Notes under the pieces: generated by a model | Told to the model about the DNA's origin: nothing | Database searches by the model: none | Seen by the model: only the letters and a program-made list of their open reading frames with translations | In this document: positions 2,180 to 38,901 of the stretch, piece by piece | How the letters are laid out: every line of letters begins with the position of its first letter | How positions within the stretch are numbered: the first letter of the stretch is position 1 | Translations under genes and position numbers: made by a program | NCBI GenBank assembly: GCA_037176885.1 | Contig: JAWWNJ010000012.1 | Location: 1,426,001 to 1,490,000 of the forward strand | From: Favolaschia claudopus | Taxonomy: Eukaryota; Basidiomycota; Agaricomycetes; Agaricales; Mycenaceae | Reading direction: 5' to 3' | DNA: 64,000 nucleotides

Positions 2180-2206
2180 TATGACGGTTATTATCGTCGT
2201 TTATTC
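2180..2206 (+). repeat. Outer TIR of copy L
   Basis: The sequence starts TATGACGGTTA and shares the inner block TCGTCGTT at the same distance with the opposite terminus at 23396-23422. It is the outer, HECT-side end of the transposon. GAGATA at 2174-2179 is the adjacent target-site duplication. Confidence 0.85.
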
Positions 2207-2370
2207 CAACTCGAGGGTGCAGCTTTCAAGGTTGAGGTCGGAGATCCAAGGCCGAAGAATTGCGGCTGAATTAGGAAGAAGTGACAGGTCTGTGACTCAA
2301 CTCCCAACTTTTCTGAGCGACTCGACCAGCGCTCAGCAACTTCACGGCGCCGTAATCTGATGCGTAGGTG

Positions 2371-2410
2371 CCCATGGGTGACCTATGGGTACCTATGGGC
2401 AACCTATGTG
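2371..2410 (+). repeat. Subterminal 10-bp repeats, outer end of copy L
   Basis: Four imperfect units of the type ACCTATGGGY follow each other at a spacing of 10-11 bp, about one helical turn, roughly 190 bp inside the TIR. A similar array lies near the other end at 23120-23160. Helically phased subterminal repeats are typical transposase binding sites in other DNA transposons, and this role is inferred here. Confidence 0.6.
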
Positions 2411-2514
2411 CTCCCTGAAGCGGTGGGCAGGCGCCGTGCCATGTAGACAAAAGTTTGAAGTCCTCCAATCTCTGCTGGAGGTCCTTCTCTCTATCTCCTC
2501 TTGTTATTGTCCCA

Positions 2515-5500
2515 ATGTCCTCCCCGGATAACAACGTGAGCCACTGTTTCGATATTCAATGCCCCCGCTCATCGTCTGGCACAGGATCCGGCCTGGTTGG
2601 AGTTCAGGCGCCAGCGTCAAGAGGCAGAAATTTGGCGAGATTATCAGGCCCAGCGCCCGCAGCAATCCGCGTCGTCCGCTGCATCCTCGACGATTTCGGT
2701 GCCTGCAACGACCTCCGTTCTACAGCCAACGGCCAATAATCCAGTACCAACTACGTCTGAAAACGTTCCAGCAGTCCCTGCACCGGGCACGTCGTTTCTC
2801 GCCTACCAATACTGCAATTACTGACTTTGTATCTTCAGCGCGTGTCACACAATCATATCTCAGCGCTCGCGCTTTGCCAATGCCTCAAAATCAAGCATTG
2901 ATCGCCCCGAATTCTTACGGACCCTTCCTCGGGGCTCAGACGCTTGCGCCTTCTTCGGGCACCCTCAGCACCACCCACGCTAATCAGGCGCGACTGCAAT
3001 CAAGCTCTCGCTCGTCCCTGCCTCGTCGCACCTCCCAACGTCCAGCCGGTCGTCCCGCAGGTTCGACTACTCGTCTCGCTCCATCCCTCGCCATGAGCGG
3101 CCCCAACATCGAGTCGTGTGTTTTCATCAACTCTGACGGAGTGCGAATGTTTCGCTTGACTGTTCAGGTCTATCCTCCCATTGTAAGCTTCACAATATTT
3201 CCCTCGTCAATGACTAACACTCAAAATTACAGGCGCCAAAGAGCAAATTGCCCCTCTTTGTGTACGACGCTCTGAAGTTCGATTGGCGTAACTATCTCGA
3301 GGCGCACGGTCTCTTATTTGAATACGATCTCCCTGCATCCACTCCTGTACAAGAGCTTCTCCACCGTGCCATCACAGACCTATCTCGCGGGAACTACAGT
3401 TTCCCTCCCATTCTTCGCTACGGCGACACCGCCGGTGCTCCGATGCCGTATCTCCAGTTGCTCGCGCACAAAAATAAAGGGAAGAACACAGGCGGGATCA
3501 AGCTAGCTTCTGTCATGAAGCCCAGCCACTGGACCATTGAGCACCTTGCGGCGGACCGCAATTACTTCGCTGCACCGGACGTCTGCATTGAATACGAGTA
3601 CAATCGCCCCAACCGTTTCCTCATCCGAATCAGTAAGTGTTTTCTGGACTAATTTCAATATGCTTTCTCATCGGCATTCAGTACCTACGGTGTTCCCGTT
3701 GTACCGCCAAGTGGAGGGCGTGAAGCACGAATGTATCACTAGCATAACATACCGTCGTTTCCCTCGAGATGGGGGCAGTTTGCAGTCGGCTTCTTCTCAG
3801 GTCTGCTTTTGCGCGCAAGATGAACACAAAGATGAAGATTCGGAGTGTGCCGAGGGGGATGACCAGCTTGTAGCTCGGATGCTGGTATGTCAAACTTAAC
3901 TCATCTCCGTGGGACTGTGATCTCAAATCCCGTCGAAGCTTCCGTCCACGTCAACAACATTCAGCCCACCGTCGCCGAGCTTCTTTGCCACAAATCCTTC
4001 TGTTGATATCTCACAACCCGGCCCTAGCAGTGCCGTCGCTCTTGCTTCGGCCTTTGTGCCCTCGACTCCTCTCCGGCCCCGCTCTGCCCTACCACCCCGC
4101 CCCCGTACACCCAGTCCCCGCCCCCGCCTAGCCCTACGCTCTCTTCCAACAGCTACCTCATCTCTCTCCGTCTCTTCATCCGCTGCGTCTGCGGCCAACT
4201 CTAGTGGGCTTCCGCGTGAGATCTGGAGCGAGAACACAGTGTTCCTTCCCGAACCCGTTGGCGATGTTGATCGTCTAGATATTGAGTCGTTCATGGATAG
4301 CGTGTACAGTGCTGCAACGGTTGGAGGCTCTACCGTCGCACTCCACATCAATGCCACCGACATCGACGATGCCCACCGACAATACGTTGCCATCATCGAC
4401 GACTGCCTACGCCAGGGTGATTGCGAACGCATTTTAGTCAAGCCCCATCAACGAATCTTTAGTTTGTGAGTTAATCCTACCTCGTCTGTCCCTCTTCTCA
4501 TCAATTGTATAGGCAATATCCGCAGTCCGCTACTGGTCCCGGGGTCGAGCGCGAGACGCTGTGGAGCGTCTTTTCAGGCTTTGACCTGCCATCGCTGCTG
4601 ATGTCCCGCGAGGACAATTTCTCCACTCTCCGGCCCCTCTTCACCTCGACGGACATTCCCGTCCCTGCATCCCGTCTGGATATCGTGCGACGTCTCGGTG
4701 CTGTAACTGCGCTTCTGTTGATCTCTGGTCGTTGGCCCTTCCCACTTGATCCGTCAATTTTCCAATACCTCATACACGGCGGGAACCTTCACGCTCTCCA
4801 TCCAAGCTTCGTCGGGGAATGGCATCCGTCCCTCCGTCAACGCCTCCTTTCTCTAATCGATCTTGGGCCTGACGCAGATCTGACCCCCTTCGAATCTGAT
4901 CTGGCTACCTATCTGGACAGCAGCGTATGTTTCGTCAAACAATATCTTGATTCTCGTGCGCTGAAATCTCCCACAGGCCACTGTATATCGTCGCCGGGAT
5001 TTGGCGACACATCTCGCTATTCCTCCTCTACTATTGCATATTGCTATACTCGGGACGGCCAGCCCTCCTTACTGGGCTGCGTTCAAAGCTGGGTTTGACT
5101 TGCCGTGCCCTCGGAACGACTTCACATTCTCCAAGGTTTGTCTTGCATGTGGCGCCTTGATTCACTTTGCTGATCTTTCTATAGATGATCAAACGCTTTC
5201 AAGGAGGGTCCGAGGCCTTCTTGTCCCTCTGCAACACCTCCTTCATTTCTGATGCTGAAGTTTTCCTGAATTCAGTCAACTTTTTAACCCCGACCGGCAC
5301 CTCGCAGTGGACTGCAAGTCTTCGGACCTTGGCAGCAGATCCATTCCTCACTTGCCAGGGTTTGTTTGAGCGGTTCGTTCGTGGGAGCGGCATCCCCTGC
5401 CGCAACCGCTTCGAGGAAGCGCGCGGATCGTTCTCCTCCATCATCGACCTGACCCGCATCGACACACCTGGTTTCCGAGGACAAATCGTAGCGTGGGCAG

Positions 5501-5842
5501 CAACTGGTTCCCCCTTTATCGACCTGGCGTCCGACACCATTGATGTCTGTATTCCTTTCAACCTTCACATCTAGCCTTATAATAATTAAATGATTCCAGA
5601 TCGGCCCCATTGCCACGAATGACGGCGCGTACGCAGTGGAGGAGAACCAGCTATATGCGAGTGCTGGGACCATCTGTTTTCGAACGTGCACGCGCTCAAT
5701 GCGCTATCCCGCCGAGTATCTCCTCCAACTTGCAAGCACCACATACACAGAAGGCTCGGAGCCGTCGAACTTCCAGGAAGCCTTCAACTTTTGGATTCTA
5801 CGAGAATGCCTTCTCACTATCGGACGCCATAGCATGGCTTAG
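2515..5842 (+). CDS. HECT-like protein, transposon cargo (copy L)
   Basis: This is a multi-exon gene. It starts at ATG 2515 with a seven-codon first exon, followed by a 49-bp GT..AG intron. The N-terminal third is Ser/Pro/Thr-rich low complexity, and one intron there cannot be placed with certainty. Conserved exons begin near 3233, then come an acidic Cys-containing stretch (about 3790-3890) and a PRTPSPRPRLALRS linker (about 4090). The C-terminal half (4510-5842) has the look of a HECT E3 ligase: a long alpha/beta lobe and a last exon with the motif TICFRTCTRSMRYP, resembling the catalytic-Cys region TCxxxLxLPxY. The assignment rests on this pattern only and the catalytic Cys is unproven. 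The exons used stay open, so the gene may be intact. A diverged homologue sits at the same place in copy R. A host ubiquitin-ligase-like protein as cargo is an inference. Confidence 0.55.
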
Positions 5843-6383
5843 TACTGACCGCCTTCATATCAAAGAGTCTCATCCAAGTTTCGCGCTGCTGCTCAGTTTC
5901 TCCCTACGTAGTCTGCTAAAAAATTCATGTTTTACATAGCTGTAAAGAAATTGTGTTTGTGTTGTCCTTCAATTACTGTCAATTACTGCCGCCTCTAATT
6001 TGATTCTCTGAGACAAAGCGAGCATGAGATTCTATCACAATTGACGATGTGTCGTCGTCGTTGCTGCTTCGCTGCTGCTTGCCGGTGCTTCTTTGTATCG
6101 ACCGTGCGGTTCTCGCGCCGGCGCCGGCACCCACCCTTCACTGACCATCTTCGTTGTCGGAGTCAAAATAGCTGAGTCTGTGTGAGTCTCGTCTGCGTCC
6201 AGTCCATTGTTTCTTGGCCGTCCGTACTGCATAGGACTCAAACCCGGGACCCAGCAGCCAACAAACGGATCGTGCATCTCGGACAATGTCATACCAGTAG
6301 CTGATTTTGCTCTATTTTTCTTCACAGTTTGCGCCTCGCCGCCTCGAAACTGTTTTCGCCCACTCACATCTCTCCCAACACAA
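5843..6383. other. Intergenic between HECT-like and Hsp70 remnants
   Basis: There is no coding potential. A box-B-like stretch (GGTTTGAGTCC on the minus strand near 6236-6246) is also present in copy R near 34185-34195, inside a roughly 80-bp conserved tRNA-like sequence, but it does not form a good T-stem. The region probably contains the old Hsp70 promoter and 5' leader. Confidence 0.4.
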
Positions 6384-6976
6384 TGTCTTCCTCAAAAGCT
6401 ATTGGAATCAATGTGGGAACAACCTATACTCGTATGCTCCCTTCATGTCTTCACACCCTCACTTTTACTCACTTTCAATCCAGCTGCGTTGGTGTCTGGC
6501 AAAACAATCGTGTAGAGATCATCGCTAACGACCAGGGTAACCGCACCACCCCCTCGTATGTCTCCTTCTCAGACAACGAGCGTTTCATCGGCGATGCCGC
6601 AAAAAATCAAGTCGCAATGAACCCGACAAACACGTACGTTCATTTTTTTCTCTCTCTTACTTCCTGGTATCATGCTAACATTCTCTCCAGAATGTTCAAC
6701 GCCAAGCAACTCATTGGTCGAAAGTTCGACGGTGCCGAGGTGCAGGCCGACATGAAGCACTTCCCCTTCACCCGTGTTCAGCAAGGGTGGTAAGCCCTAC
6801 ATCCAGGTCGATTACCGTGGCGAGTCGAAGGAATTTGTACGTGTTTTTCTTCCTTCTACTTGAGATCGCGATGTGCTGACGAATTTCTTTTTTTTCAGTC
6901 GCCCGAAGAAATCTCGTCCATGGTCCTACTCAAAATGAAAGGAATTGCCGAATCATACCTTGGCACGACGGTTAAA

Positions 6977-7016
<40 letters not shown>

Positions 7017-8835
7017 CGCGTCAGGCTACCAAGGACGCCGGTACCATTTCCGGTATGAACGTCCTCTGAATCATCAACGAACCTACTTGTCCTCATCTTC
7101 GATCTCGGTGGAAGAACCTTCAATGTCTCCCTGTTGACGATTGAAGAGGGTATCTCCGAGGTCAAGGCCACCGCTGACACTCACTTAGGTGGCGAGGACT
7201 TCGACAACCACCTTGTCAATCACTTCGCGCAGGAGTTCAAGCGTAAGAACAAGAAGGGTATGCATTTTGTTTGATCCTTTTTCAACCACATCCTGATTGG
7301 ATTCCTTCAGATCTCTCCTCTAACCTTCGCGCTCTGTGTCGCCTGCGTACCACTTGCGAGCGTGCCAAGCGTACCCTCTCCTCCGCCGCCCAAACTTCCA
7401 TTGAAATCGACTCTCTGTTCGAGGGCATCGACTTCTACACCTCTTTAACGAGTCAGCCCGATTCCGTATGCCCGACAGTCGCCTTCAATTCGAGAGGTAG
7501 CCTGCCGACAAAGCTTTCGACTACTTTCTGACCCCAAATCACCGCTCATCTTCTACTTTCATAGCCGGTTCATATCTTCGGTGCGCGCAATCCTCGGCTG
7601 GACATCACCTCGTGCAAAGTGGTCCGTCATTGTCTTGGAACTCTACCACCAACATCGAAACTTTGTGTCTTTACTCAGCGTGGAGTTAGAGACGTCGATT
7701 ACCATCCATCATGTTGCTCCAGTACTTAGTAGCGTACACATTTGAATGAATATTTTGTCTTGACAGTGTAGTGTGAAATAGTGAGCTCTGCTGGGCCTAT
7801 GTACTACGGATTATAATGAGCTGGAGGATTCCGAGCGATAGAATTGTCACGTCCAACAGCGGCCGACGTGACACCAATATGACCGTGTTTGGCTCACACC
7901 ACCACCACCACCACCACTGCGTCCCCCTCGATTCTTTAGGAGTTCAAACTGAGCAAAGTAAGTCCTAGGTTTTTTTTGTGACTTTTCGGTCAAGTCGCAC
8001 GGCGCAAAGTTCGTGCTCGAAACACGTTGCTGCTGCTGTGTGCGATACGCTGGGCGCGTACCATCGGTCCTACGGAGGTACGCAGCAGCTGCGGCCATTT
8101 CGGCGCACCTTGCAATGTCGTCTCGACAGTCGGTTCCCTTTTCTTCTTCTCCAAACACTCGCCTGACGGTACTTCATGTAGGAAATGGGGCATTGCGCCA
8201 AAACTCGCCTTCAAGATCTCGGACACACTTAGACCGTCTCGCCACGCCATCTCCGGACACAATTCAAACGTCTTGCCATCCTCTACGCTCACGCCGAATC
8301 CCAGACGCCCGACTCGTCTGCCTACGCTGTTTAACAACGTAAGCTTCCCATATTCAAAACCAGACTCGAAAAACTCATCCTTCTTTCCACAAAGCAGGCA
8401 ACACATCGGCGTTTCTCTCCCCTCAGCCGCCGACTGACCTTCTCAGTTGTTTGTCGCCACAACATCAACCTCCCAGTCACATCCGAGTCGTCGCTCTGAC
8501 TTGCCGCTGCCGCCCTGACCACAGGTCTGTGGTGGTGTGTTCCCGCTCCCTCCTGCCCGCGCTCGTTTCGAGGACATGTGCCAATATCTCTTCCGCAGCA
8601 CCCTTGAGCCTGTCGAGAAGGTTCTGAGGGATTCCAAGATCGACAAGGCCAACATCCACGAAATCCTTCTCGTCGGTGGCTCCACCCGTATCCCCCGTAT
8701 CGTCAAGCTCGTGTCGGACTTCTTCAACGGCAAGGAGCCCAACAAGAGCATCAACCCCGATGAGGCCGTCGCATATGGTGCCGCGGTCCAGGCCGCCATC
8801 CTCTCCGGCGACACCTCCGAGAAGACCCAGGATTC
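6384..8835 (+). pseudogene. Broken cytosolic Hsp70 gene (copy L)
   Basis: It starts [15 protein letters not shown] and continues with unmistakable Hsp70 blocks: [74 protein letters not shown] and [12 protein letters not shown]. The usual GIDLGTT phosphate-loop motif reads GINVGTT, replacing a conserved Asp that binds Mg-nucleotide in Hsp70s. It is broken by a frameshift near 6780, a stop after SGMNVL (about 7067), a deletion of the AAAIAYGL block, an unrelated insert of about 1.1 kb after DFYTSLT, and loss of everything beyond SGDTSEKTQ at about 8835. It is non-functional as a chaperone. The copy R homologue retains more of the C-terminus but is broken at other points, so the two decayed partly independently. 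Confidence 0.85.
7470..8545. other. Unrelated insert inside the Hsp70 remnant
   Basis: Between the Hsp70 blocks DFYTSLT and RARFEDMCQ lies about 1.1 kb that does not belong to the family. It includes a CAC/CAA-rich stretch near 7895-7920. A recognisably homologous insert is in copy R (about 32200-33060), so it entered before the two elements separated. Several overlapping frames are open but none resembles a known protein. It ends just before the Hsp70 frame resumes. Confidence 0.5.
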
Positions 8836-8943
8836 AGCGCGACTTCCCTCCTGGCTCAAAGGGACCTTACCCGACGTATTCGCTACATATGGTCTCGAAG
8901 CGTGCTGCCAAGGCCGCCGCTTCCGCTTCCGCGTCTGCGACGC
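8836..8943 (+). other. Host-derived fragment, left half (split by gypsy)
   Basis: This follows the Hsp70 breakpoint and continues at 18647-19049 on the other side of the gypsy element. Joined at the TSD GACGC, one frame begins [19 protein letters not shown] and runs into a Ser/Thr/Pro-rich stretch. It has no counterpart in copy R and no family is recognised. It looks like a captured piece of a gene. Confidence 0.35.
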
Positions 8944-9489
8944 TGTTATATCCGTGTCGAACAAAGGGACGGAGGACGGGTGGCCGGAGGCCGGAGGACG
9001 GAGATGACGGAAGAGACGGAGGACGGAGGACGGAGGACGGATACGGAGGACGGGTGAAGCGATACCACAGGGGGCTAAGGGTACGCCACTAACTAGACTT
9101 CCAAGAAGATAGAGGATTCTGACCACGGAGCAATGCGGAGGCAAAGCACGTTAATTTTCAACTGAAGTTACAAGACGAAGTAGATAGGTATATATACGTA
9201 TTACGGAGAAAGGCCATATAAGGTAATAGTAAGTAAAGACAATAAGAGTTGTAAGCGAAAGAACAATAAAGACAATAGAGACAATAAGGGAGAAGCATAC
9301 AGGCATAGATCATGGGATTGATTCGGGAACGCTCAGAAGACCTTCATTGCGAAAACCCGATGGGTGTATGCTTCGACGGATGAACCGGAGCACATAAGGA
9401 CGGACAAGTAGAAGTAGGCCGGGGGCCGGATGGCCGGAGGCCGGGGGACGGATGGCCGGACGACCGGGTGAAACTGCATGGGCGTAACA
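8944..9489 (-). repeat. 3' LTR of gypsy element
   Basis: The LTR is 546 bp with TGTTAT...GTAACA ends, GACGC outside at 8939-8943, and an array of GGACGGA-type units (8960-9060). It carries a palindromic TATA-like GTATATATAC at 9188-9197, which could work in either direction. It has one 7-bp unit more than the other LTR. It lies directly upstream of the opposite-strand gene at 9678. Confidence 0.95.
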
Positions 9490-9505
9490 GTATCCCCCTC
9501 TTAAG
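9490..9505 (-). other. Polypurine tract of gypsy element
   Basis: On the minus strand the bases just before the 3' LTR read AAGAGGGGGATAC. This is a purine run at the place where plus-strand DNA synthesis is primed in LTR retrotransposons. Confidence 0.6.
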
Positions 9506-9677
9506 GTTCCTTGACCCTAAGGAACCTAAGAGTTCTGTGGAATCAGAATGAGTCGTAGGGATGACGAAAGGAAGGCCGAAGAGTCCGATAGAATAATTGT
9601 TGACTGCGCATCAAAAAGTCACGTGAGATCGTGGGAAGTTGAACTTGGCAAAAAACTTCTCTCTTCCTACTACCACC

Positions 9678-11538
9678 ATGTCGCCCGCCCCGTCCAACTC
9701 GTCTGCCCCGCCCCGTCTCACCGCCAAGCAGAAAGCCAAGGGCCGCCTGGTGCAACGTCGCCGGGTGGAAAGCGAAGAGGAACACCCCGAGGACGCCGCC
9801 TCTGTCGACGAGGACCACCACCGCCGACAAATCCCGCCGCCTCTCTTGGAGGAGGCCAACAAGCAAGCGGATGGGTTGCTTGCCCACCAACTCCATGAAC
9901 AAGAGCTGGAGTACTTGGACGAGATAAAGACCCTCAACAAGCTCATCAAGGATAGGAAGGCACTTCGTCGACGACTGGAGACTGGCAAGGCCGACAACAA
10001 CGACCGCGTCCAGGCCACCGACGTTATCCGCGGGGTCACTCCGGACAAGGCGGACGTGCCGGACGAGTCGATGCACTCCAGCGATCATAGTACGGTGCCG
10101 GAGGGTATGGAGGAGGTTGTAGAGGATGAGGAAGTGGCGAAGAAGGCGGGAGGAAAGCGGGGACGGAAGACGGAGGAGACGGAGGAGCGTCCTCGCAAGA
10201 AGATGAGGCCGGAGGAGATCGAGTGGGAGGAGAGGAAGCCGGGTGAGTCTTCGTCCGGGTATTGACATTGACGACTAACTTCCAATAGCATGCAAGAAAT
10301 GCGTGGCGAAGGGCGTTCCATGCCTCTTCGCCAAGAACAAGAAGCAAGACGCTTGCAAGGCCTGCGCCGAGGCCCACATCAAGTGCCCGGCTTTGCCGGA
10401 GAACGCTGCTCGCCCGCCCACTGTCAAGAAACACCGGGTGGAAGAAGCTCTCAAGGCGAAGTCGGAGGGCCGGGCGAAGCCGGAGGTCAAGAAGACCAAG
10501 ACCAAGGTGGTGACGCGTGCCCCGGCTGCGACGGGTGGGCCGGACGTTACTCCAACGTCCGCTGCCCACTCGTTGGAGCTGAGGAGGGTTAGGGCGCGCG
10601 TCACCCAATTGGAGACCTTTTGCGACTTCATGGCGGAGCGGTTCTGCAACCAGTGGGAGAAGGATATTGGGGGAGTCGTTCCACACGAGATAGTGGAGTA
10701 TTTGCAGAGCAGGGGAAGGATGCCGCTGGATGAGGTGAGGGACGACGACGAGAAGGAAAAGAAGAAGGAGAAGAAGAAGGAGATGGATGACTGGCGGAAG
10801 AACGTTTCGCCAGGTCAGCCGGAGGAGGAAGAGGGAACGGACGAGGACGAAGAAGAGCAAGCTCCGGCTCCGGCCCCGACCCGTCCACCTACCCCCGGCC
10901 CATCGCACCAACCCACCACTCCCCGCACCCCGCGCACCCCTCGCACTCGCCTTGGTACGCGCGCACCGACCTCCGGTCGTTCGAGGAAGTCGGTACAATC
11001 GGTGAGCACGTTTGCCGGCCCCTACCTCATGCTCAACCAATACACGGCATTGTATCAGATGCCGCCGGAAGAGCCGGAGATCAAGCGGGAGCCGGGCGTC
11101 GAAGAGAAGGCGGAGATCGCGCTGGCGTTGGAGCCTAGTGCGGCGAGGAAGACGGAGAAGGTGGCGGATAAGAAACGGAAGGAGGAACTGGAGAAGTTGA
11201 AGGCGGAGAAGGCGGAAGCGGATAAGCGGAAGGCGGAGGAACAGGAGAGGGATAAGGAGCGGGATGAAAAGATCCAGGCGCTCCAGGTGTCGTTGGAGGA
11301 GGTGAAGAAAGAACCGGAGGAGCAAGTCGTACCTCCGGCTGAAGTGCCGGAGGGATTTATGAGGACGGTTGAACAGGGGAAAGAAGTCCTCGTCCTCATG
11401 GACTCGGATGACGAGAGGGATGGAGAGGCGGAAGAGGAAGAGACGGGAGAGGCCGGAGAGGCGGAAGTGGCCGGAGAGGCCGGGGGAAATGAAGAAGGGC
11501 CGGATGTTGGAGGTGAACAGTCCCAGGCGGACTTGTAA
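9678..11538 (+). CDS. Opposite-strand Zn2Cys6-like gene in gypsy element
   Basis: The model is join(9678..10242,10289..11538), 604 aa. The start ATG lies in ACCACCATG, a good eukaryotic context, and the 46-bp intron has GTGAGT, a CTAAC branch-like site and TAG. Right after the intron is C-X2-C-X6-C-X10-C-X2-C-X6-C (from ACKKCVAKGVPC to CKACAEAHIKC), the spacing of fungal Zn2Cys6 clusters. It is followed by a Pro-rich linker and a very long Glu/Lys coiled-coil-like region (about residues 390-530) and an acidic tail. The N-terminus (first 190 aa) is charged with a predicted helix. It converges on pol, with 154 bp between the stops, and its only nearby promoter candidate is the 3' LTR. A DNA-binding or regulatory role is inferred from the cluster. 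Expression is unknown. Confidence 0.75.
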
Positions 11539-11691
11539 ATAAAAAATGAACTTTTTGTAAATAAAATCGAATAGCGAACCGAATTGTTTTCTTGGTCCTT
11601 TTTGGTGTGAAGTAAGCCAAGTCGGATGAGCCGGGTGACGGGTGAGCCGGAGGACGGAGGAGCCGGAAGACGGGTGAACGCGTTCATCCGG

Positions 11692-18641: not shown

Positions 18642-18646
18642 GACGC

Positions 18647-23422: not shown

Positions 23423-23428
23423 GAGATA

Positions 23429-26725: not shown

Positions 26726-26731
26726 GAATTG

Positions 26732-26994: not shown

Positions 26995-27036
26995 CCGTGG
27001 GTGACCCATGGGCACCCACGGCTGCCCATAGGCAAC
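26995..27036 (-). repeat. Subterminal 10-bp repeats, integrase end of copy R
   Basis: This is the reverse complement of the 23120-23160 array, with GTGGGTGACCCATGGGC, GCCCATAGGC and similar units at about 10-bp steps. Confidence 0.6.
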
Positions 27037-27353: not shown

Positions 27354-29180
27354 TCAAAATAAGTCATTACGAAGGCGCCTCGCAGCGGCAAGCCCTTCAA
27401 TCCACAGAACTACGACATCCTCATCACGAACAGCCCCAGCAAATGGGAGAAGAACCGCTTCAAGGGCCTGCAGCTCATCCAATGAGAAGGGACCCGTTGG
27501 GGGCTCGACGGCTATCTCGTTGAGGTTTTCGGGTGGGCCGCGTCGCCCAAGCCAGGATGTAGGCTCTTCATCCATCGCATTGTTCTGTTGACGTGAGTCA
27601 AGAATGTCGTTGTCGCGTAATGCCTCCCAGTCCACCCCAAAAACCTCCATCTCCTCGTCCGACATCGGGGCAGCGTCTGCTGTGGGTAACTCGCTTCCGC
27701 GTACACCATGCACTATCATGTCGAACCCAAACATGTCCGCTGGAGAACGGTTGGGCCCCGGTCCACGGCGCATCTCGATATTGTGTTGATTCCAGGACTC
27801 CATGAAGAAGCGAAGCTGCTCGTTAATCTGGTTGAGGAAAAGGTAATGCAAGAGCCAGATATGGCCGACGTTATTGATGTCGAGGCCGTGTTGTATCTCA
27901 AGGTGAGTGAAGAGCTCCGCCCAAGTAGCTCCGATTTGAGCAGTGATATCACCCCAGAGGCGCTCTATTCTTACATTATGCACGCTCCTGTAAAGCGATA
28001 TTTGCACCATTTTAATTGCTCGAAAATATAAGCCGCTTACCTCCCCCACAAATAGGATCCCCGGCCTTCCCCGCGCAATGCCTCCATCCAAGCTGCGACC
28101 AGCAAATTCTCGACACCGTGATCTCCTCGAACGCGCGACGGGATGCCATATATCAAGGTCGCTGCCAAGAAGAGGTCTAAGACGGTTTGCGAGCGGTTGT
28201 TATTGCTCGCAAGTAGACCTGTAATCAATCGTGAGTACCCGTCAATGAATCCATGAATCACAATGCCCCAGCGAATGAGACCTGTGATTCTTTGTTATCT
28301 ATACTGCTGCGAATACATCTGTGCACTCACCATGTTGTCCGTCGTGATGCCACAGTGAGTTTGGTCCAGGGACATTGTATGTGCGGCGCCGGATTGTGAT
28401 ACGCTCAAAAACTCGTCTAACAGGATCAATGCGAAGCAAAGACTGGCGGATGCGCTCGATCTGGACATGGTGACCGAGCCGCCGTAACATTCCTTGCATC
28501 ATTCTGACCCCCGCTCTTCGGAAGTGGTGTCGCAGTCGGATGACAAGCTCGTCCAACTCGTCATCAGTAATTGTGGAAAGTGGGCCAGTGTAAGAGGAGA
28601 TTGCTGGCTGTTCCTCGCCATTGGTAGCTCCATCTCTCTCTTCCCTAGTCGACAGTCCTGCAGGCTGCTCCTGTGGCTCGGCGATGCCGTGATCCAGTAA
28701 CGCTTGCCGCACCACCGTTCTACTAACGCCAAGAAAATGTGCGATGCTGGATGTCGACCTCAAGGAGTAAGCCCATCGGAGGAAATCAGGATCGATCTCA
28801 ATGGATGGACGGCCAGCGGCACCACTGTAGACCCTCTCGACAACTATCGGACGACCTTCGTGTGACTGATCAGCAGCATCTTGGTACTGTTGTCTGACAT
28901 CGTTTTGCATCACAGCAATATTTTGGCACAATAACTCCAGTTCAGCCGCGTCGAAGATAAATGCATACTGGATTTTATTCATTGTGAGGTATTCAAGGTA
29001 ACAAATTCTGCCGACCTCATCAAGTAAATTCGCATATTCTTCCAAGTCGTCGCCCAATCTCCAGAGCACCACTGTGTCCGCGGAATTCGCAACCGCACTC
29101 CTAACCGAGGCTTCGTATCGATGATAGTGTTCCCTGAAAGCATTCAGCAGATCCTGTTGTGCGGCTCCCGACACCGACAT
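27354..29180 (-). CDS. rve-superfamily DDE integrase/transposase (copy R)
   Basis: The model is complement(join(27354..27987,28041..28281,28331..29180)), 574 aa. It has the same three-exon structure, HTH and D,D(35)E residues as the copy L enzyme, and the translated exons are identical to it. The absence of any change in this gene, against clear divergence elsewhere in the element, suggests recent transfer, recombination or gene conversion of this end. Its start codon overlaps that of ORF539 on the other strand. Confidence 0.85.
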
Positions 29181-30921
29181 GAGTGCTTGTTTTCAAGAGG
29201 CTTCATTCATCACGACCAAACAAACAAAAAAAATCATTCTAATAACTTCAACTCAACCAATGTTGGGCTCGCCACATCCTGTGTCCGAGCCGTCGAACAA
29301 CCCTCCAGTTTCGGCTACCTTGGTTTGTGTCTCCATTGACGGAGTCCCTGGCATTCATCAGCACACGTTCTATGGTTTTTCTATGCCGCTAAGCACTTCG
29401 GCGCCACCCTCCTTTCCAGGCTCTGAGCCTACAAGCTCCGTCGGCATCTCTGCTCTTTTGAGGGCAATAATTGATGCAGCTAACTCGTCGGAAAGCGAGA
29501 AACTCCCCCGAGAACTGCACACCATCCTTACCAAATATGACTCCAGTCTCACAGATATTCGTGTCTCGACAACACAAGTGCCTTGTTTCGGTGCGGAGAT
29601 GCAGTTGCCCCACACCGGATTCCAAGGCCTCGGTTTCCTGAAGACTCTACTATTGAGCGGTGAAAGCTCGAGTCCGATCTCATCCATTGATTACACTTCC
29701 GATTTGCTGGAAATGCAGTCTTGGAGGAAACAACTAGTCAGAGCGGGGGCCAATCTGTCCCACCATTTCATAGTAATACTTGCTGTTGACCCAATCCCGC
29801 TGGATAGTCCAGCCGCCCTTTCTAGCGCCCCAGGGGAGTTTCCACCTTTTTCAACCTCCAATGGACAACTGTTTCACGGAGCAAACTGGCGTGAACTGGA
29901 AGCCATTCTACCAAATTCCCACCAATCTCTGACAACAGTCTCTAATACACCTATGCTTTTTTCTCCCGAATCGAGCGCCAATGTTGCTGAAAATCATTCT
30001 CTCGGTGAGTCGGAAACCATTGGTTGAGTTTGAATGTTTTTAAAGGTTTCAAACAGAAGAGTACTGGGGTTCAATGTACAATGACAGTGCTACTAGTAGT
30101 TCTTCTCCGCAAAATCGGTTGGAGACACAGTACGAAAATATTGACAGTTCTGCCCAAGCAGTCATTTGGCCTGGGGTATCCGAAACACTGCCTCCGTCCA
30201 ATTTCGGTAAGTTCTACATTCCACTCTTGTGCAAAAAATATTCTTGAATCCTTGCACGAAGCTCAAGATCTCTGCAGATTACATGCTAGCAGCGTCTATT
30301 CCAATCAGCGGCGAAGACAATGACACCAGCGAAGTCCACCAGGTTCCTGAGCATATTTCTTGCTCTCTGGTGGTCGGCATGCGTGTTCGGGATGCACTCG
30401 CAATGGCAGGTATTGCATCAGCGCAGTTGAATGCGGCTCAGTATGTGCAGAGCGGCACGTTATGGCAGCTGTATCGCAACCACAAGGCTGCAAAACATGT
30501 TCTGTCGTGCATGGGGCTCGCCTCGGAATCCTCTCAAATCACATACAGCGGCGGTTTGACATTGAGAGGAGATAATGTGCTGACGGAATTGGGATGGTCA
30601 AGTCGCTCGTTCCGAAACAAATGCACCGCTTATAGGGCGGCACGAGAATTGGCCAATCGCTCCTGGCCGGGACCCGTTCCCACTGCAGATTTGACTTCCG
30701 GACAAAAAACCATGGATTCACCTTACACGCACTATCAAAATTGGTTGGGAATTGTTGCCATGTTCCATCACGGCTACTGCGATCGGAGTACCCCCCCTCA
30801 GAAGGACTCTTTCGATGCGGATGAGGCCCGTGCAGCCACACTTTCCCAGAATACACTCCTTAATCGCCTGAAACCGATTCGTTCCTTACTTGATGATATT
30901 GCGAAACAAAAAGCTAATTGA
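29179..30921 (+). CDS. ORF539, transposon core protein of unknown function (copy R)
   Basis: The model is join(29179..30004,30057..30206,30278..30921), 539 aa. Exons match copy L one for one. Scattered substitutions appear only in the last exon, for example AASIPIS versus APSIPIS and KDSFDADEARA versus KDSSDANEAHA. The frame is intact. See the copy L entry for a description; the function is unknown. Confidence 0.75.
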
Positions 30922-31308
30922 ATTGTAAAAAGCCTAGTATTCTAACCGTGTCCTTCCTTCCTATAATTACCTTTCTGTTGCTGTATATGCTATGCAATTG
31001 CTTTGAATACTTGTATCTACGAAATATAAATAAGAATCGCGAAACTAATAGATGCAACAAAGGCCGAATCGTAAGTATACCAGGGACGTCTATATTAGTA
31101 GGGCAAGAAGGGATTCCGGTTCCCTTGACTTGTCCCCGATACATGCTGTCTGCTCTTGGTGGAAGAAAACTGTGTCAAGTCAAAGTGAAGACATCGAAGA
31201 GGAGATGCAAGTTTGCTGACGAAGTAAGTAAGTTTTATCTAACCACTCAATTTGTCTTATTTCCCTGCTCATCTGTGCTGACAACCCAATTCAGCGCATG
31301 CGTTTTTC
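30922..31308. other. Junction between ORF539 and Hsp70 remnant (copy R)
   Basis: No gene. Similarity to copy L fades at about 31100. The remaining 200 bp are specific to copy R and differ from the host-derived fragment that occupies this place in copy L, so the two elements have different internal junctions. Confidence 0.4.
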
Positions 31309-34081
31309 ACACATGAACCCGCTCACCGTCATCCACTGCCAAACCCTTCTGCAAAGCATCGAGTCATTTGATTGTCTTGGTGACAGCGCTCTCGAGTTTC
31401 GACTTGTCAATGAGCTTCTCGTCGGTGAGCGAGTTGCGGAGGTTGTAGGCGTAGGACTCGAGGCCGATCTTGGCGGCGATGCGAGCGACGGCAGCCTCGT
31501 TCTCAGCTAAAAATACTCAAGTCAGTGAATTGAATAAGACAGAAAGAGCAGTGCAACACACCTTTGTAATTCTCCGCCTCCTCGACCATGCGGTTAATCC
31601 CCTCTTTTGACAGAGGGCCCTTGTCGTTGGTGACGGTGATTCGGTTTGACTTGCCGGTCGTCTTGTCGGAGGCAGAGACGTTGAGAATGCCGTTGACGTC
31701 GATGTCGAAGGTGACCTCGACCTGAGGGACACCACGGGGAGCGGGGGGAATGCGGCAAATGCCGGAGAGCTCGAATTTGCCGAGGAGGTTGTTGTCCTTC
31801 GTGCGCGCATGCTCACCCTCGTAGACCTGGATGAGCACACCGGGCTGGTTGTCAGAGTAGGTGGAGAAGGTCTCCGACTTTTTCGCGGGGACGGTGGTGT
31901 TGCGCTTGATGAGCGCGGTCATGACACCACCAGCGGTCTCGATACCGAGGAAGAGGGGAGCGACGTCGAGAAGGAGGAGATCCTGGGTCTTCTCGGAGGT
32001 GTCGCCGGAGAGGATGGCGGCCTGGACCGCGGCACCATATGCGACGGCCTCACCGGGGTTGATGCTCTTGTTGGGCTCCTTGCCGTTGAAGAAGTCCGAC
32101 ACGAGCTTGACGATACGGGGGATACGGGTGGAGCCACCGACGAGAACGATTTCGTCTCAAGGGTGCTGCGGAAGAGATATTGGCACCTCTCCTCGAAACG
32201 AGCCCGGGGAGGTCGGAGCGACGACTCGGATGCGACCAGGAGGCCGATGTTGTGGCGACAGACAACTGAGAAAGTCCGTCGGCGGCTGAGGGGAGAGAAA
32301 CACTGATGTGTTGCCTGCTTTGTAAAAAGAACGGTGAGTTTTTTGAGTCTGGTGTTTGAAAGTGGGAAGCTTACGTTGTGAAACAGCATAGGCGGACGAG
32401 TCGGGTGTCTGGCAACAGGATTTGGCGTGAGCGGAGAGGATGGCGAGACAGTTTATTTAAATTGTGTCCGAGATCTTGAAGCCGAGTTTTGGCGCAATGC
32501 CCCCATTTCCTACATGAAGAGCCATCAGGCGAGTGTTTGGAGATGAAGAAAAGAGAACCGACTGTCGACACGACACCACAAGGTGCGCCAAAATGGCCGC
32601 CACTGCTGCGTACCTCCGTAGGACCGACGGTACACGCCCAGCGTATCGTACACAGCAGCAGCAACGCCTTTCGAGCACGAACTTGGCGCCGTGCGACTCG
32701 ACCGAAAAGTCATAAAAAAAACTAGTTCTTACTTTGCTCAGTTTTAATGCTCCTAGAGAATCGAGGGGGACGCAATGGTGGTGGAAGACCAACGCGGTCA
32801 CATCGGTGTCACGCCGGCCGCCGCTGTTGGACCACAATTCTATCACTCAGAATCCTCCAGCTCATTATAATCCGTAGTACATAGGCCCAGCAGAGTCCAC
32901 TATCTCACACTACGCTGTCAAGGCAAAATATTTATTCAAATGTACACTACTACTAAGTACTGGAGCAACATGATGGATGGTAATCGACGTCTCTAACTCC
33001 ACGCTGAATACTTAAAGACACGAAGTTTTGATGTTGGTCGTGGAGTTCGTTTGGCACGCTCGCAAGCGGTACGCAGGCAACGGAGAGCGCGAAGGTTAGA
33101 GGAGAGATCTGAAGAAATTTGATCAGGATGTGGTGAAAAAAGTATCAAACAAAATGCATAACCTGCTTGTTAACTTCTTACGCTTGAACTCCTGCCCAAA
33201 GTGATTGACGAGGCGGTTGTCGAAGTCCTCGCCACCCAAGTGAGTGTCACCAGCGGTGGCCTTGACCTCAAAGATACCCTCTTCAATCGTCAACAGGGAG
33301 ACATTGAAGGTTCCTCCACCGAGATCGAAGATGAGGATATTCCGCGAGCCAGTGACCTTCTTTTCGAGACCGTAGGCGATGGCGGCAGCGGTAGGTTCGT
33401 CGATGATTCGGAGGACGTTCATACCGGAAATTTCAAATAGTACCGGCGTCCTTGCTAGCCTGACGCGGAGAGTTGTTGAAGTAGGCGGGGACGGTGACGA
33501 CGACGTTGTTGATCGTCGTGCCGAGGTACGATGCGGCAATTTCTTTCATTTTGAGCAAAGCCATGGACGAGATTTCTTCGGGCGACTGAAAAAAAGAAGA
33601 TCGTCAGCACATCGCAATCTCAAGTAGAAGTAAGAAAAAAAACGTACGAATTCCTTCGACTCGCCATGGTACTCAACCCAGGTGTAGGGCTTACCACCCT
33701 TGCTGAACACGGTGAAGGGGAAGTGCTTCGTGTCGGCCTGCACCTCGGCATCGTCGAACTTTCGACCAATGAGTCACTTGGCGTCGAACATACTGGAGTG
33801 AATGTTAGCATGATACCCAGGAAGTAAGAAGAAAATGAACGTACGTGTTTGTCGGGATCATTGCGACTTGATTTTTTTGCGGCATCGCTGATGAGATGCT
33901 CGTTGTCTGAGAAGGAGACATACAAGGGGGTGGTGGGGTTACCCTGGTCGTTAGCAATGATCTCTACACGATTGTTTTGCCAGACACCGACACAGCTGAA
34001 TTGAAAGTGAGTGACAGTGAGGATGAAGAGATGAAGAGAGCATACGAGTTGGTTGTTCCCAACAGCTTTTGAGGAAGACAT
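31309..34081 (-). pseudogene. Broken Hsp70 gene (copy R)
   Basis: It starts MSSSKAVG at 34081, but a short deletion removes the rest of the phosphate-loop motif. Recognisable blocks follow: [30 protein letters not shown]-type sequence, [32 protein letters not shown] and [14 protein letters not shown]. After an unrelated insert (about 32200-33060) there is a deletion after [11 protein letters not shown] clean substrate-binding region follows (LVGG..., [53 protein letters not shown]). A last exon ends ESAVTKTIK and stop. Compared with copy L it keeps the AAAIAYGL block and the C-terminal half but has its own deletions. Not functional. Confidence 0.85.
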
Positions 34082-34546
34082 TGTGTTTCGAGGCGCAAAC
34101 TGTGAAGAACAATAGAACAAAATCAGCTACTGCTATGACATTGTCCGAGATGCACGATCCGTTTGTTGGCTGCTGGGTCCCGGGTTTGAGACCTATGCAG
34201 TACGGACGGCAAAGAAGTAATGAACTGGACGCAAATAGGACTTACACAGAGTTGTTTTGACTCCGGCAAGGAAGATTGTCAGTGAAGGCGGGCAATGGCG
34301 CGTGATCATGAGAACCGCAATATACAGCGGCTGCGAAGCAGCAACGACTATGCATCGTCGATTGTAATGGAATCTCATGCGCGTTGTCGCGGAGAATTGA
34401 AATTGGACGCGGTAGTTGCTATTACAGACACAGACACGATTTGTTTACAGCTACTATGTAAAGACATATTTTTTTTGGCAGACTACAAAGCAATTTGGCG
34501 ACGGCGCGCAAGCTGGATGAGAGGCATATGCAAGATGGTACTCGTA
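34082..34546. other. Intergenic between Hsp70 and HECT-like remnants (copy R)
   Basis: The counterpart of 5843-6383 in copy L. The tRNA-like stretch (34138-34210) is conserved. No coding potential is seen. Confidence 0.4.
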
Positions 34547-37500
34547 CTAAGCCATACTGTGACGTCCGATGGTGAGAAGACATTCGCGCAGGATCCAAAA
34601 GTCGAAGGCTTCCTGAAAGGTCGACGGTTCCGATGCTTCTGTGTAAATGCCGCTTGCAAGTTGAAAGAGATAGTCGACGGGATAGCGCATTGAGCGCGTG
34701 CAGGTCCGGAAACAGACAGTCCCAGCACTGGCATAGAGCTGATTTTCCTCCAGCGCGTAGCCACCGTCGTCCGTAGCAATAGGGCCGATCTGAGAACGGT
34801 TATGTTCAGGGACTAATGTGATTGTACAAGAAACACATACATCAATGGTGTCAGACCCCAAGTCGATGAAGGGGGAACCAGTCGCTGCCCATGCGACCAT
34901 CTGCCCTCGAAAGCCAGGCGTGTTGATGCGCGAAAGGTCGATGATAGAGGAGAACGATGCGCGAACATCTTCGAAACGGTCGCGACAGGGAACCCCGCTT
35001 CCACGAACAAATTTCTCAAACAAACCTTGAAAGGTAAGCAAGGGGTCTGCTGTCATTGTCCGAAGACGGGCGGTCCATTGTGAGGTGCCGTTGGGAGTCA
35101 TAAAGTTGACTGAATTGAGCAAAACTTCGGCGTCAGAGATGAAAGACGTATTGTAGAGAGACAAGAAGGCTTCAGAGCCCCCTTGGAAAAGCCGGATCAT
35201 CTAGCAAGCGTTCAGGACTACACAACAAGAAAGGGCTACACCAACCTTAGAAAACGTAAACTCATTGCGAGGGCATGGTAGGTCAAACCCGCTTTGAAAT
35301 GCAGTCCAATAGGGACCACTGGCTGTCCCGAGAATGGCAAGGTACAACAATACCGGCGCAATCGCGAGATGGGTTGCCAAATCGCGATCACGATAAACGA
35401 TAGCCTGTACAACAAATCAGCAAACCGAGCCACCAATTCCTTGACGTACACTTACACTGCTATCCAGGTACGTCGCAAAATCGGACTCGAAGGCAGCGAG
35501 GTCAGCATTAGGCCCAAGCTCAATCAACGACAGAATGCGTTGACGAAGGGATGGGTGCCATTCACCTACAACATTTGGATGAAGTGCGTGAAGGTTCCTG
35601 CCGTGGACGAGGTACTGGAAAATGGCTGGGTCAAACGGCGACGGCCAACGGCCAGAGATAAGTAGAAGCGCGGCGACAGCGCCGAGACGCTGTATGATTT
35701 TGAGACGAGACGCAGGAACTGGGATTTCTGGTGAATTGAAGAGAGGTCGAAGAGTAGAGAAGTTGTCTTCGCGCGGCATGAGTAACGAAGGCATGTCGAA
35801 CTTTGAATATATGCTCCATAGAACCTCGCGCTCCACGCCAGGACCAGTAGCAGACTGAGGGTATTGGCTGTAACCGATGAGAAAGATGGGTGAAAAGAGT
35901 AGCGAAACAACTCACAGACTAAAGATGCGTTGATGAGGCTTCACTAAGATGCGTTCGCAGTTCCCCTGACGGAGGCAATCGTCAATGATGGCGATGAACT
36001 GGTTGCAAGCATCGTCGATGTCGGTGGCATTAATACGGAGTGGAACAGTAGCACCTCCAGCAGACGCGGTAGCGTATACGGTATCCATGAACGAATCTAG
36101 GTCGAGACGCTCGATGTCGCCGACGGGCTCCGGAAAGAACATGGTGTTTTCACTCCATATCTCGCGCGGCAGTGCAGTTGAATTGACAGCAGGTGGAGCT
36201 GGTGCAACGAAGGAAGACGCAGGCTGAGATGAGACCGTTGTTGTAAGCGAACGAAGCGCCAGGCGGGGCCGTGGGCTGGGGGTACGAGGGCGCATCGGCA
36301 AAGCACCACGAGGACCAGGAGGGCTGGAAGGCACGAAAGCCGGGGCCAGAGTGACGGCAGTACTGGGTCCCGATTGCGAGAGACCGGCAAATGGATCTGT
36401 AACGAAAACGCCAGATGAAGAGCGACTGAGCCCTGTGGCTGACGTCGATGGAAGCTTCGAAAACGTGTTAGTGTATGCTTGGACAACGCTTGGAATTGAC
36501 ATACCAGCATCTGAGCCACAAATTCCACATCCCCGGAGTCTCCGTCTTCGTGTTGGGGATCATTGTACGGAACGCTCTCACACACACAGATTTTAGAAGA
36601 AGACTGCAAACTGCCCCCATCATGAGGGAACCTGCTGTATGCTATAGTAGTGATGCAGTAGTGCTTCACGAGCCCCTCGTGGTAGAATAGTGGAAACACT
36701 GTTGGGACTAATAGTAGATGTCAATAAGAAAACATCTTAAACGATAGATCAGAGACACTCACTCATTCTGATGATGAAACGGTTCGGACGGTTCATGTCA
36801 GACTCGATGCAGGTATCAGGCGCAGCAAAATAATTGCGGTCTGTAGCTAGGTGTTCGATGGTCCAATTATTTGGCTTGATGGCTGTATTCAGCTTAATAC
36901 CGCCGGTGTTTTTTCCTTTGTTTTTCAACGCAAGCAATTGGAGGTATGGCGTCGGAGCACCAGTGATGTCACCGTAACGAATGATGGGGGGGAGACTGTA
37001 GTTCTCGCGGGATAGATTTGTAACGACACGCTGAAGGAGATCTTGTACAGTGGTGGTTGCAGGAAGGTCGCACGTAAAGAGAAGACGATGTGACTCGAGA
37101 AAGTTACGCCAGTCGATTTTGAGGGCATCGTACACGCTGAGCTGGAACTTGCTGTGCGGTTTCTGCAATTTCAAGCATGAGTCATGGTCGAGAGGTAGAA
37201 ATTACAAAACATACGATGGGGGGATAGACTTGAACGGTAACACGATACATCCGGACCCCAACCGAGTCGGTGAAAACGCAGGACTCCATGTTGGGACCTG
37301 CCATAGAGATAGATGGAGGAAGACGGCTGGTCGAGCCTACGGGGCGGCCGGCGGGGCGTTGGGATGTGCGACGAGGGAGTGACGAACGAGAACTGGACTG
37401 CAGCCGCGCTTGGTTAACGTGCGTGGTGCTGAGAGTGCCCGACGACGGAGCGAGCGTATGAGCGCCGAGGAAAGGTCCGTATGAGCTTGGCGCAATTAGG

Positions 37501-37882
37501 GCTTGATTTTGAGGCGTTGGCAAAGCGCGAGCGCTAAGATATGATTGTGTAACACGCGCTGAAGATACGAAGTCAGTAACTGCAGCATGGGTAGGCGAGA
37601 AACGACGTGCCCGGTGCAGGGACTGCTGGAACGTTTTCAGACGTAGTTGGTACTGAATTATTGGCCGTTGGCTGTAAAACGGAGGTAGTTGCGGGCACCG
37701 AAATCGTCGAGGATGCAGCGGACGACGCGGATTGCTGCGGGCGCTGGGCCTGATAATCTCGCCAAATTTCTTCCTCTTGACGCCGGCGCCTGAACTCCAA
37801 CCAGGCCGGATCCTGTGCCAGACGATGAGCGGGGGCATTGAATATCGAAACAGTGGCTCACGTTGTTATCCGGGGAGGACAT
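34547..37882 (-). CDS. HECT-like protein, transposon cargo (copy R)
   Basis: The same multi-exon gene as in copy L, from ATG 37882 to TAG 34547, ending LTIGRHSMA like its partner. The N-terminal low-complexity part (37190-37880) is almost identical to copy L. From the next exon (36770-37170) onward the proteins differ at roughly a third of positions, although domain order and intron positions hold. The last exon has TVCFRTCTRSMRYPV, the candidate catalytic-Cys region. The Cys/acidic block (CVCESVPYNDPQHEDGD) replaces the copy L version. The frames are open, so both copies may encode proteins. The HECT assignment is by motif look only. Confidence 0.55.
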
Positions 37883-37999
37883 TGGGACAATAACAAGAGG
37901 AGATAGAGAGAAGGACCTCCAGCAGAGATTGGAGGACTTCAAACGGACTTCAAACTTTTGTCGACATGGCACGGCGCCTGCCCACCGCTTCAGGGAGCA

Positions 38000-38042
38000 C
38001 ATAGGTTGCCCATAGGTACCCATAGGTCACCCATGGGCACCT
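38000..38042 (-). repeat. Subterminal 10-bp repeats, outer end of copy R
   Basis: This is the reverse complement of the 2371-2410 array, with ATAGGTTGCCC, ATAGGTACCC and ATAGGTCACCC steps. Confidence 0.6.
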
Positions 38043-38147
38043 ACGCATCAGATTACGGCGCCGTGAACTTGCTGAGCGCTGGTCGAGTCGCTGAGAAAAG
38101 TTGGGAGTTGAGTCACAGACCTGTCACTTCGACTTCCTAATTCAGCC

Positions 38148-38809
38148 CAGAAAGAATGGGATTTGGAAAGTCCGCCAAAATGTCTGGCATCACGTCCGGC
38201 GGCGGCGATCGGCACACCTATATGACGTGATTGGTAGCTGCCAGACAATATGTGTAAACAAACACGACGCGTCGACAATGCGAGTTCTTCTGGCGTATTT
38301 CGACGCGACATACGGCTGCCACCACGCGTCATTTGCAGCTTCAATACACTTATAATTGTTTTAATATTGATTCTCGTGCTCGTAGCCCTCAAAGTATCCC
38401 AATAAATGAACTGTACTACATTTTTCTGTTGTCTTGCCATCTAAAAATATTGTGTAAAGGCACTCACACATCTAAGAATAAAGCAGCTGCTACTTCTATG
38501 GTATTGACGCAATATTCTAATCAATTGTGGACTGGGCGAGGTGGGCAAATGGGATAAATTGTCCTGCATACCTCAATTTGGGACGCTGTACTTGATTTTC
38601 TCGGAGCTCCTGCTAATTCAAAGTGTATAACAGGCGCGTGGAGCATATAGACGCCCTCACATGCCCAAAGGGAGAGCGGAAAACGCAGAAAACAAAGTGA
38701 TTCGGCCATTCGGCATAGCTCGGAATGTTCCGATCAATGTCTGGCCGACCTGCGGCCAGACCTGATCCCGGACATTTGATGCCAGACTTTCTATTTCCCA
38801 TTTGTTCTC
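38148..38809. mobile_element. Non-autonomous hAT-like insertion in copy R
   Basis: 662 bp absent from the same place in copy L. It is flanked by the perfect 8-bp duplication ATTCAGCC at 38140-38147 and 38810-38817. The ends are imperfect inverted repeats (CAGAAAGAATGGGA and GAGAACAAATGGGA, then AAAGTC). An 8-bp TSD with a CAGA-type end fits the hAT superfamily. No transposase frame is present. Confidence 0.75.
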
Positions 38810-38874
38810 ATTCAGCCGCAATTCTTCGGCCTTGGATCTCCGACCTCAACCTTGAAAGCTGCACCCACGAGTTG

Positions 38875-38901
38875 GAATAAACGACGATAATAACCGTCAT
38901 A
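38875..38901 (-). repeat. Outer TIR of copy R
   Basis: Read on the minus strand it starts TATGACGGTTA and matches the outer TIR of copy L. It is followed by the TSD GAATTG (38902-38907). Confidence 0.85.

Follow-up and report, generated by a model that had tools for sequence, protein, structure and literature searches.

The window analysed here, a 64,000-nucleotide stretch of contig C12 of the 264.6-Mb Favolaschia claudopus assembly (contigs are abbreviated as C plus number), holds two complete large DNA transposons, copy A and copy B, which lie in inverted orientation (Table 1). Each carries a transposase gene, a divergent partner gene and, at the other end, a gene for a HECT-like protein. 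The element family to which they belong is real and well bounded; as far as could be tested it is of a known transposon kind. Its size is unusual, and the literature searched gave no description of its passenger gene in this kind.

Two complete transposons and their genes

The termini, coordinates and separate 6-bp duplications (GAGATA and GAATTG) given in an earlier note on this DNA were all recovered when the junctions were re-read. The junctions are GAGATA/TATGACGG...GTCATA/GAGATA for copy A and GAATTG/TATGACAG...GTCATA/GAATTG for copy B. The inverted repeats are imperfect, 20 of 27 bases being identical between the left and right ends of copy B. Unoccupied counterparts were sought with queries of 500 bases, consisting of the two flanks of a copy joined through one hexamer. 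The query from copy A gave an unbroken match over 500 of 500 bases on C22 (96% identity) and C4 (92%). The query from copy B matched 15 places over positions 1-500 (92-97%) and one more over positions 1-488 (98%); the matches are numerous because the insertion target of copy B is a dispersed repeat. Six empty loci were aligned, two of them for A and four for B; in each, the hexamer and its adjoining bases are single and identical. The uninterrupted sites, which the earlier note had proposed as a check, thus join exactly at 2180/23422 and 26732/38901. These counterparts are either paralogous or allelic places.

The three open genes of copy B encode a HECT-like protein of 960 amino acids (ten exons), a transposase of 574 (three exons) and a partner protein of 508 (three exons). 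Their introns were picked by eye, with the deposited model P0121 as an aid for those of the HECT-like gene. The transposase has the length that had been predicted for it once two short introns are removed, and matches the Pfam model rva_4 at 2e-66 and rve at 2e-6 (28 bits). For the D,D(35)E motif named in the earlier note, 34 residues were counted by eye from the second D to the E. The HHCC zinc-finger pattern was not found in P0001, the deposited model of the transposase gene, while both the pattern and a zinc domain were detected in the gypsy integrase of the window, which served as a control. Helix-turn-helix matches at the transposase N-terminus were weak and below the cut-off, and a profile of the protein found no match among PDB sequences at E 0.01. 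The partner protein, for which 539 amino acids had been given, is shorter in the deposited models as well (512 or 503). It matched no Pfam family over the cut-off, alpha-kinase included, and a structure prediction from two sequences reached a mean predicted local distance difference test (pLDDT) score of 31.

Two further large copies, on C106 and C119, are described below. An open partner frame is present in all four copies and an open transposase frame in A, B and C119; the transposase frame of C106 is interrupted. Between B and C106 the ratio of nonsynonymous to synonymous divergence (dN/dS) is 0.10 at dS 0.105 for the transposase and 0.33 at dS 0.42 for the partner. Between B and C119 the transposase gives 0.30 at dS 0.013, and between A and B the partner gives 1.1, with very few changes.

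Copies A and B had been presented as two copies of one transposon. They share their ends, but they are not simple duplicates: by BLAST their left halves are about 77% identical and their right halves about 99%. In 400-base steps, the identity of A to B is 99% near the left end, 67-79% across most of the HECT-like gene and 95-100% over the right part, whereas the identity of A to C106 is 98-100% on the left and 77-97% on the right. Copy A is therefore a recombinant, its left part being C106-like and its right part B-like. Gene conversion between neighbouring inverted copies would be a simple explanation of the mosaic. The surplus length of copy A is due to a nested gypsy-type element of 9698 bp, whose long terminal repeats (LTRs) are 98.7% identical and whose insertion site lies between the C106-like and the B-like parts. 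Copy B has a later insertion of its own, of 662 bp, with GGCTGAAT on both sides and inverted ends that look alike by eye; it is presumably a short hAT-like element.

Table 1. Features of the two transposons in the window (positions of the whole stretch)
Feature	Positions	Strand	Remarks
Copy A, complete transposon	2180..23422	+	HECT end left, transposase end right; empty counterparts on C22 and C4
Target duplication GAGATA, left	2174..2179		junction read directly
Target duplication GAGATA, right	23423..23428		junction read directly
Left terminal inverted repeat, A	2180..2206	+	left/right match 20/27, measured on B
Right terminal inverted repeat, A	23396..23422	-	junction read directly
HECT-like gene, A	2515..5842	+	10 exons projected from B, open across 956 codons
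Hsp70 fragments, A	6476..8818	+	profile positions 9-63, 109-172, 185-244, 295-380 of 599; pseudogene
Gypsy-type LTR retrotransposon, later insertion in A	8944..18641	-	9698 bp; 5-bp duplication GACGC; outside transposon proper
Partner gene, A	19230..20891	-	three exons, divergent to transposase; ORF539 of the earlier note
Transposase gene, A	20971..22797	+	three exons, 574 aa, Pfam rva_4
Copy B, complete transposon	26732..38901	-	inverted relative to A; uninterrupted counterparts found elsewhere
Target duplication GAATTG, left	26726..26731		junction read directly
Target duplication GAATTG, right	38902..38907		junction read directly
Transposase gene, B	27354..29180	-	exons 28331-29180, 28041-28281, 27354-27987
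Partner gene, B	29260..30921	+	exons 29260-30004, 30057-30206, 30290-30921; 508 aa
Hsp70 fragments, B	31563..33585	-	profile positions 109-162, 157-242, 328-518 of 599; pseudogene
HECT-like gene, B	34547..37882	-	10 exons, 960 aa; HECT-like domain C-terminal; fold predicted from homologue P0126
662-bp later insertion in B	38148..38809		8-bp flanking repeat GGCTGAAT; unaligned in A, C106, C119

Copies, related families and gene linkage

The whole genome was searched with the 22-base terminal pattern TATGACRGTTAWWWTCGTCGTT, allowing up to 2 mismatches, and with the reversed pattern as a control. The search found 51 termini of the window family, against 2 in the control. Judged by position and opposite strands, 46 of the 51 are paired and form 23 elements, 18 of them 708-838 bp long and five 10.4-21.2 kb long (A, B, C106 with 10,561 bp, C119 with 10,408 bp, and C35 with 20,046 bp). 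The same pair of termini, which the earlier note had asked to be looked for at other integrase and partner loci, thus occurs at C106 and C119, both with the integrase and the partner gene. The 6-bp duplication is perfect in 22 of the 23 paired elements and has one mismatch in the other, and the ends are TATG..CATA in 22, with TATT at one end of the remaining copy. Five termini are single (C30, C57, C76, C200 and C110:446866), and no match to the HECT, partner or transposase genes was found in the 10 kb beside each. C35 was rejected as a fifth large member of the family: there, a short element is interrupted by a relative of 19,270 bp (C35ins; ends TATGGC..CTCATA, duplication GAAATG), and a short copy on C1 is unoccupied at that place.

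This relative belongs to a giant family with 37 left and 20 right termini in the genome, against zero in both reversed controls. Of its 20 pairs, one spans 6.4 kb and the other 19 span 19.3-23.3 kb, and the duplications are perfect in 15 of the 19 pairs with fetched flanks. The giant family is probably young, to judge from lengths that hardly differ and from protein matches with identical scores. The 6.4-kb copy, at C204:236095-242542, has the perfect duplication GCGGCG and is probably an internal-deletion derivative. In four other copies (C42:1599963-1620122, C169:9929-29189, C293:9929-30083 and C309:9929-29191) the left and right flanking 6-mers differ within a copy but are shared crosswise among the four; ectopic recombination or assembly joins may account for this, and the four are possibly not independent. 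A third family is represented by an element of 12,342 bp on C49 with the duplication CAATGG, whose ends were chosen as the top-scoring TA..TA pair, with matches at 18 of 24 bases where a control region reached 12. Like the window family, C35ins and C49 have TA..TA termini and 6-bp duplications. In both, the HECT gene is followed by the middle, then by the partner gene, which lies on the opposite strand, and then by the transposase, so that three diverged families of this genome share one gene order. The 39 perfect duplications of the three families show a weak symmetric preference: position 1 is G or C in 30 and position 6 in 29, position 2 is A in 17, and position 5 is T in 19.

Linkage of the three genes was assessed across the genome. 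The transposase search gave 140 exon matches at 69 loci and the HECT search, made with the homologue P0138, gave 95 matches at 28 loci; both are lower bounds (76 of 732 and 51 of 481 candidates scored, respectively). The search with a partner exon gave 42 matches at 41 loci (62 of 62 candidates scored). The list of 28 loci lacks the HECT genes of A and C106, and the linkage entry for C12 included both window transposases. A transposase lies at most 25 kb away at 23 of the 28 HECT loci, for a rough random expectation of 0.37, and at most 6 kb away at 35 of the 41 partner loci, in 34 cases on the opposite strand. No HECT gene was found at 10 of these 35 partner-transposase loci, with the C106 HECT position added by hand. 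Therefore, the partner is part of the transposon core wherever it is detected, and not cargo, and the HECT-like gene marks a sub-lineage. The transposase loci, at least 69, include 24 near a HECT locus and 35 near a partner locus; at the remaining ones no partner was found at this search sensitivity. The HECT loci with no transposase match nearby are C33:860382, C56:20096, C93:1085212, C120:138353 and C398:18385. Left ends of the giant family lie within about 8 kb of those on C93 and C120, and partner-gene matches accompany those on C33, C56 and C398.

Across species, a total of 983 transposase homologues were found; among the best 120, a few are nameless and all those with an organism name are Agaricomycetes. 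Of the 20 HECT homologues, Mycena species account for 16, F. claudopus for 3 and Phlegmacium glaucopus for 1, and the 2 partner homologues are both from F. claudopus. In M. sanguinolenta the HECT and transposase genes are adjacent by locus tag (MSAN_00844400 and 00844500), and in F. claudopus both proteins are encoded on C49. In M. belliarum and M. filopes the two matches lie on equally long contigs; further Mycena locus tags of such pairs are B0H15DRAFT_777894 with 948250 and C8R46DRAFT_1329376 with 1346449. A tree was built from the best 120 of the 983 transposases, ordered by their similarity to a query that is itself HECT-linked, and rooted on the gypsy integrase of the window. All seven leaves labelled as HECT-linked fall within one clade of 19 leaves (support 0.61); of 1000 random sets of seven, 0 did so. 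F. claudopus copies account for four of the seven labels; when two of these were dropped the clade still had 19 leaves and the random sets again gave 0 of 1000. The apparent clustering of these seven leaves is supportive only.

The HECT-like gene and the variable middle

Copies A, B and C119 have an open frame for the HECT-like gene; in C106 it is disrupted by frame lesions. Comparison of a structure model of the homologue P0126 with known structures predicted a HECT fold for its C-terminal 450 residues. A conserved Cys, seven residues ahead of a conserved Pro, is present in 17 of the 20 aligned homologues, the remaining 3 lacking or misreading that end; it is putatively the catalytic Cys of the C-lobe. 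Copies A and C106 form one lineage of the gene and B and C119 another. The four pairs across the two lineages have dN/dS of 0.11-0.12 at dS 1.1-1.3, and the pairs within them have 0.13 (A-C106) and 0.25 (B-C119). The predicted fold, the conserved Cys, this substitution pattern, which points to purifying selection, and the linkage to transposase loci, the giant family among them, mark the HECT-like gene as real. The ubiquitin-ligase-like gene of the earlier note is consistent with the predicted fold and the conserved Cys. In its modelled C-terminal part and its Cys before Pro the protein resembles HECT E3 ligases such as Smurf, NEDD4, UBR5 and HUWE1; unlike these, it lies below Pfam detection and is encoded by a transposon.

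The Hsp70 gene that had been described as a second cargo is a decayed fragment in A, B, C106 and C119. In a profile search of the copies, in which 73 of 123 candidates were scored, C119 showed three short pieces (profile positions 61-107, 184-244 and 315-390) and C106 showed positions 72-244 and 243-486 with stops within. Stops interrupt conserved Hsp70 sequence in A, B and C106, and the whole profile is covered in none of the four large copies. The fragments are read as pseudogenes produced by ordinary decay, and Hsp70 was rejected as functional cargo since it is broken in all four. A second piece of a cellular gene in the variable middle, a DEAD-box helicase fragment (Pfam 2.8e-15), was observed at 7473-8135 inside the nested element of C35.

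Placement among known systems and interpretation

IS3EU elements, in Repbase since 2013, have TA..TA ends and usually 6-bp duplications, and both IS3EU and GingerRoot lack the HHCC pattern; the duplications are 4 bp in Ginger1, 4 or 5 bp in Ginger2 and 6 bp in Polintons (PMC10045372). The elements described here share with IS3EU and GingerRoot the termini, the 6-bp duplication and an rve-type DDE transposase without HHCC; the HECT passenger and the 10-23 kb size set them apart (PMC10045372). Styx of Zymoseptoria tritici, of 7927 bp and with four genes, is likewise fungal, with 6-bp duplications and an IS3EU-related transposase accompanied by further genes (PMC10853768). It differs by a 36-bp inverted repeat and by genes with GATA, CCHC and DUF3577 motifs, and the word ubiquitin occurs 0 times in the main text. 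A further difference is that new insertions of Styx were observed directly (PMC10853768). The IS3EU elements of rusts and Tuber indicum also have 6-bp duplications, and their TAYGG..CCRTA ends are close to TATGG and TATGA here (PMC12730594). In rusts, IS3EU elements hold a TET/JBP gene and, in opposite orientation to the transposase, a gene for an alpha-kinase, and a role against silencing has been proposed for a passenger; the main text mentions HECT, Hsp70 and ubiquitin 0 times (PMC12730594). The partner gene resembles this alpha-kinase gene in lying on the opposite strand at 34 of 35 loci, yet it has no Pfam match over the cut-off. In the literature searched, with preprints and most subscription papers outside its scope, no description of a HECT-carrying transposon of the IS3EU type was found, nor any publication on transposable elements of F. 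claudopus.

Ginger1 was excluded by the 6-bp duplication, in place of 4 bp, and the missing HHCC pattern, and Ginger2/TDD by the duplication, in place of 4-5 bp. An origin as an LTR retrotransposon was excluded as well, reverse transcriptase and LTRs being confined to the nested element of copy A. Polintons (Mavericks) are defined by a protein-primed DNA polymerase, a packaging ATPase and capsid genes. No Pfam match to Polinton-type genes was found in 10 open reading frames (ORFs) from the two copies and in 4 gene models from copy B, short ORFs being only partly scanned, and no polymerase-size ORF is listed outside the gypsy insertion; a Polinton is disfavoured by gene content.

We therefore regard A and B as members of a large cut-and-paste lineage (10-23 kb) of the IS3EU/GingerRoot kind, with a core of transposase and divergent partner, a variable middle and, at the opposite end, a gene of predicted HECT fold, and give this reading a probability of roughly 0.85. 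The large rve-integrase DNA transposon with further copies and a HECT-like passenger that the earlier note described is thus supported, and the undescribed superfamily that was suggested there is not required, since the tested features match IS3EU/GingerRoot structurally. Such a superfamily, separate from IS3EU/GingerRoot, would agree with the distance of the transposase from retroviral-type rve models (the 28-bit rve match), with the lack of PDB matches to its profile and with a size and a passenger unlike the IS3EU descriptions consulted. We consider it improbable in view of the 6-bp duplications and TA..TA termini found in complete IS3EU families (PMC10045372), the left end TATGG of the giant family, which fits the TAYGG of rust IS3EU (PMC12730594), and a two-gene core reminiscent of the IS3EU ancestor with two proteins that has been proposed for Styx (PMC10853768). 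That A and B arose by segmental duplication or recombination and not by transposition is highly improbable. Their inverted arrangement 3.3 kb apart, their nearly identical right halves and the mosaic of copy A, with its left half matching C106, would suit such an origin, but each copy has its own duplication and its own unoccupied counterpart, and the mosaic, but not the insertions, calls for recombination or gene conversion. It is also unlikely that the HECT-like gene was captured once from the host and is a passive passenger with no role for the element. The other decayed cellular fragments of the middle (Hsp70, DEAD-box helicase) and the frame lesions of C106 would be expected of a passive passenger; a gene that stays open in A, B and C119 while Hsp70 decayed in the same elements, that has dN/dS of about 0.12 at dS above 1 and that is present in three diverged families would not. 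Its position next to the transposase in M. sanguinolenta, and its presence on contigs of equal length with the transposase match in two other Mycena species, also argue against passive carriage.

Several results weigh against the placement in the IS3EU/GingerRoot kind and against the ligase. The placement is made from structure and domain, and similarity to IS481 was discarded as a classifier, since the gypsy control integrase matches the NCBIfam IS481 model too. No transposase was found near 5 of the 28 HECT loci, matching duplications are missing in 4 of the 19 giant copies (C42b, C169, C293 and C309), and across five linked pairs HECT divergence shows no significant correlation with transposase divergence (rho 0.43, p 0.21). 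The Pfam HECT model matches 0 of the 20 homologues, and the profile of these homologues matched 0 PDB sequences, so that HECT is seen by structure only. The best 11 structure matches of the P0126 model have template modelling scores (TM-scores) between 0.13 and 0.46, and its C-terminal lobe is modelled with modest confidence, pLDDT being 62-91 in stretches of ten residues. Ratios of dN/dS are higher or unstable in close copies (0.25 for HECT and 0.30 for the transposase in B-C119, 1.1 for the partner in A-B).

If A and B are elements of this kind, the transposase would cut at the TATG..CATA ends by DDE catalysis and join them to the target with a 6-bp stagger, and the short copies that share these ends would be mobilised in trans. 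Copy number may rise through repair from the sister copy, as proposed for Styx, and the fragments in the middle would derive from host genes. The fold, the Cys, the selection and the linkage suggest that the HECT protein may ubiquitinate a host or element protein to the benefit of the element. Our preferred guess, a tentative one, is that its target is host silencing or the control of transposase and repair proteins. By extension, and with somewhat less than even odds, the elements could form a Mycenaceae lineage of the IS3EU type with its own selected HECT-fold ligase, serving counter-defence or self-regulation, that was acquired alongside growth to 10-23 kb, with recent amplification, internal module swapping and shared ends.

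If the HECT protein is active, these elements would be transposons that bring their own ubiquitin ligase, in parallel to the TET/JBP dioxygenases of fungal IS3EU, and would offer a concrete handle on the answers of fungal transposons to host silencing. The 19 paired copies of 19.3-23.3 kb indicate that elements of the IS3EU kind can exceed 20 kb and multiply.

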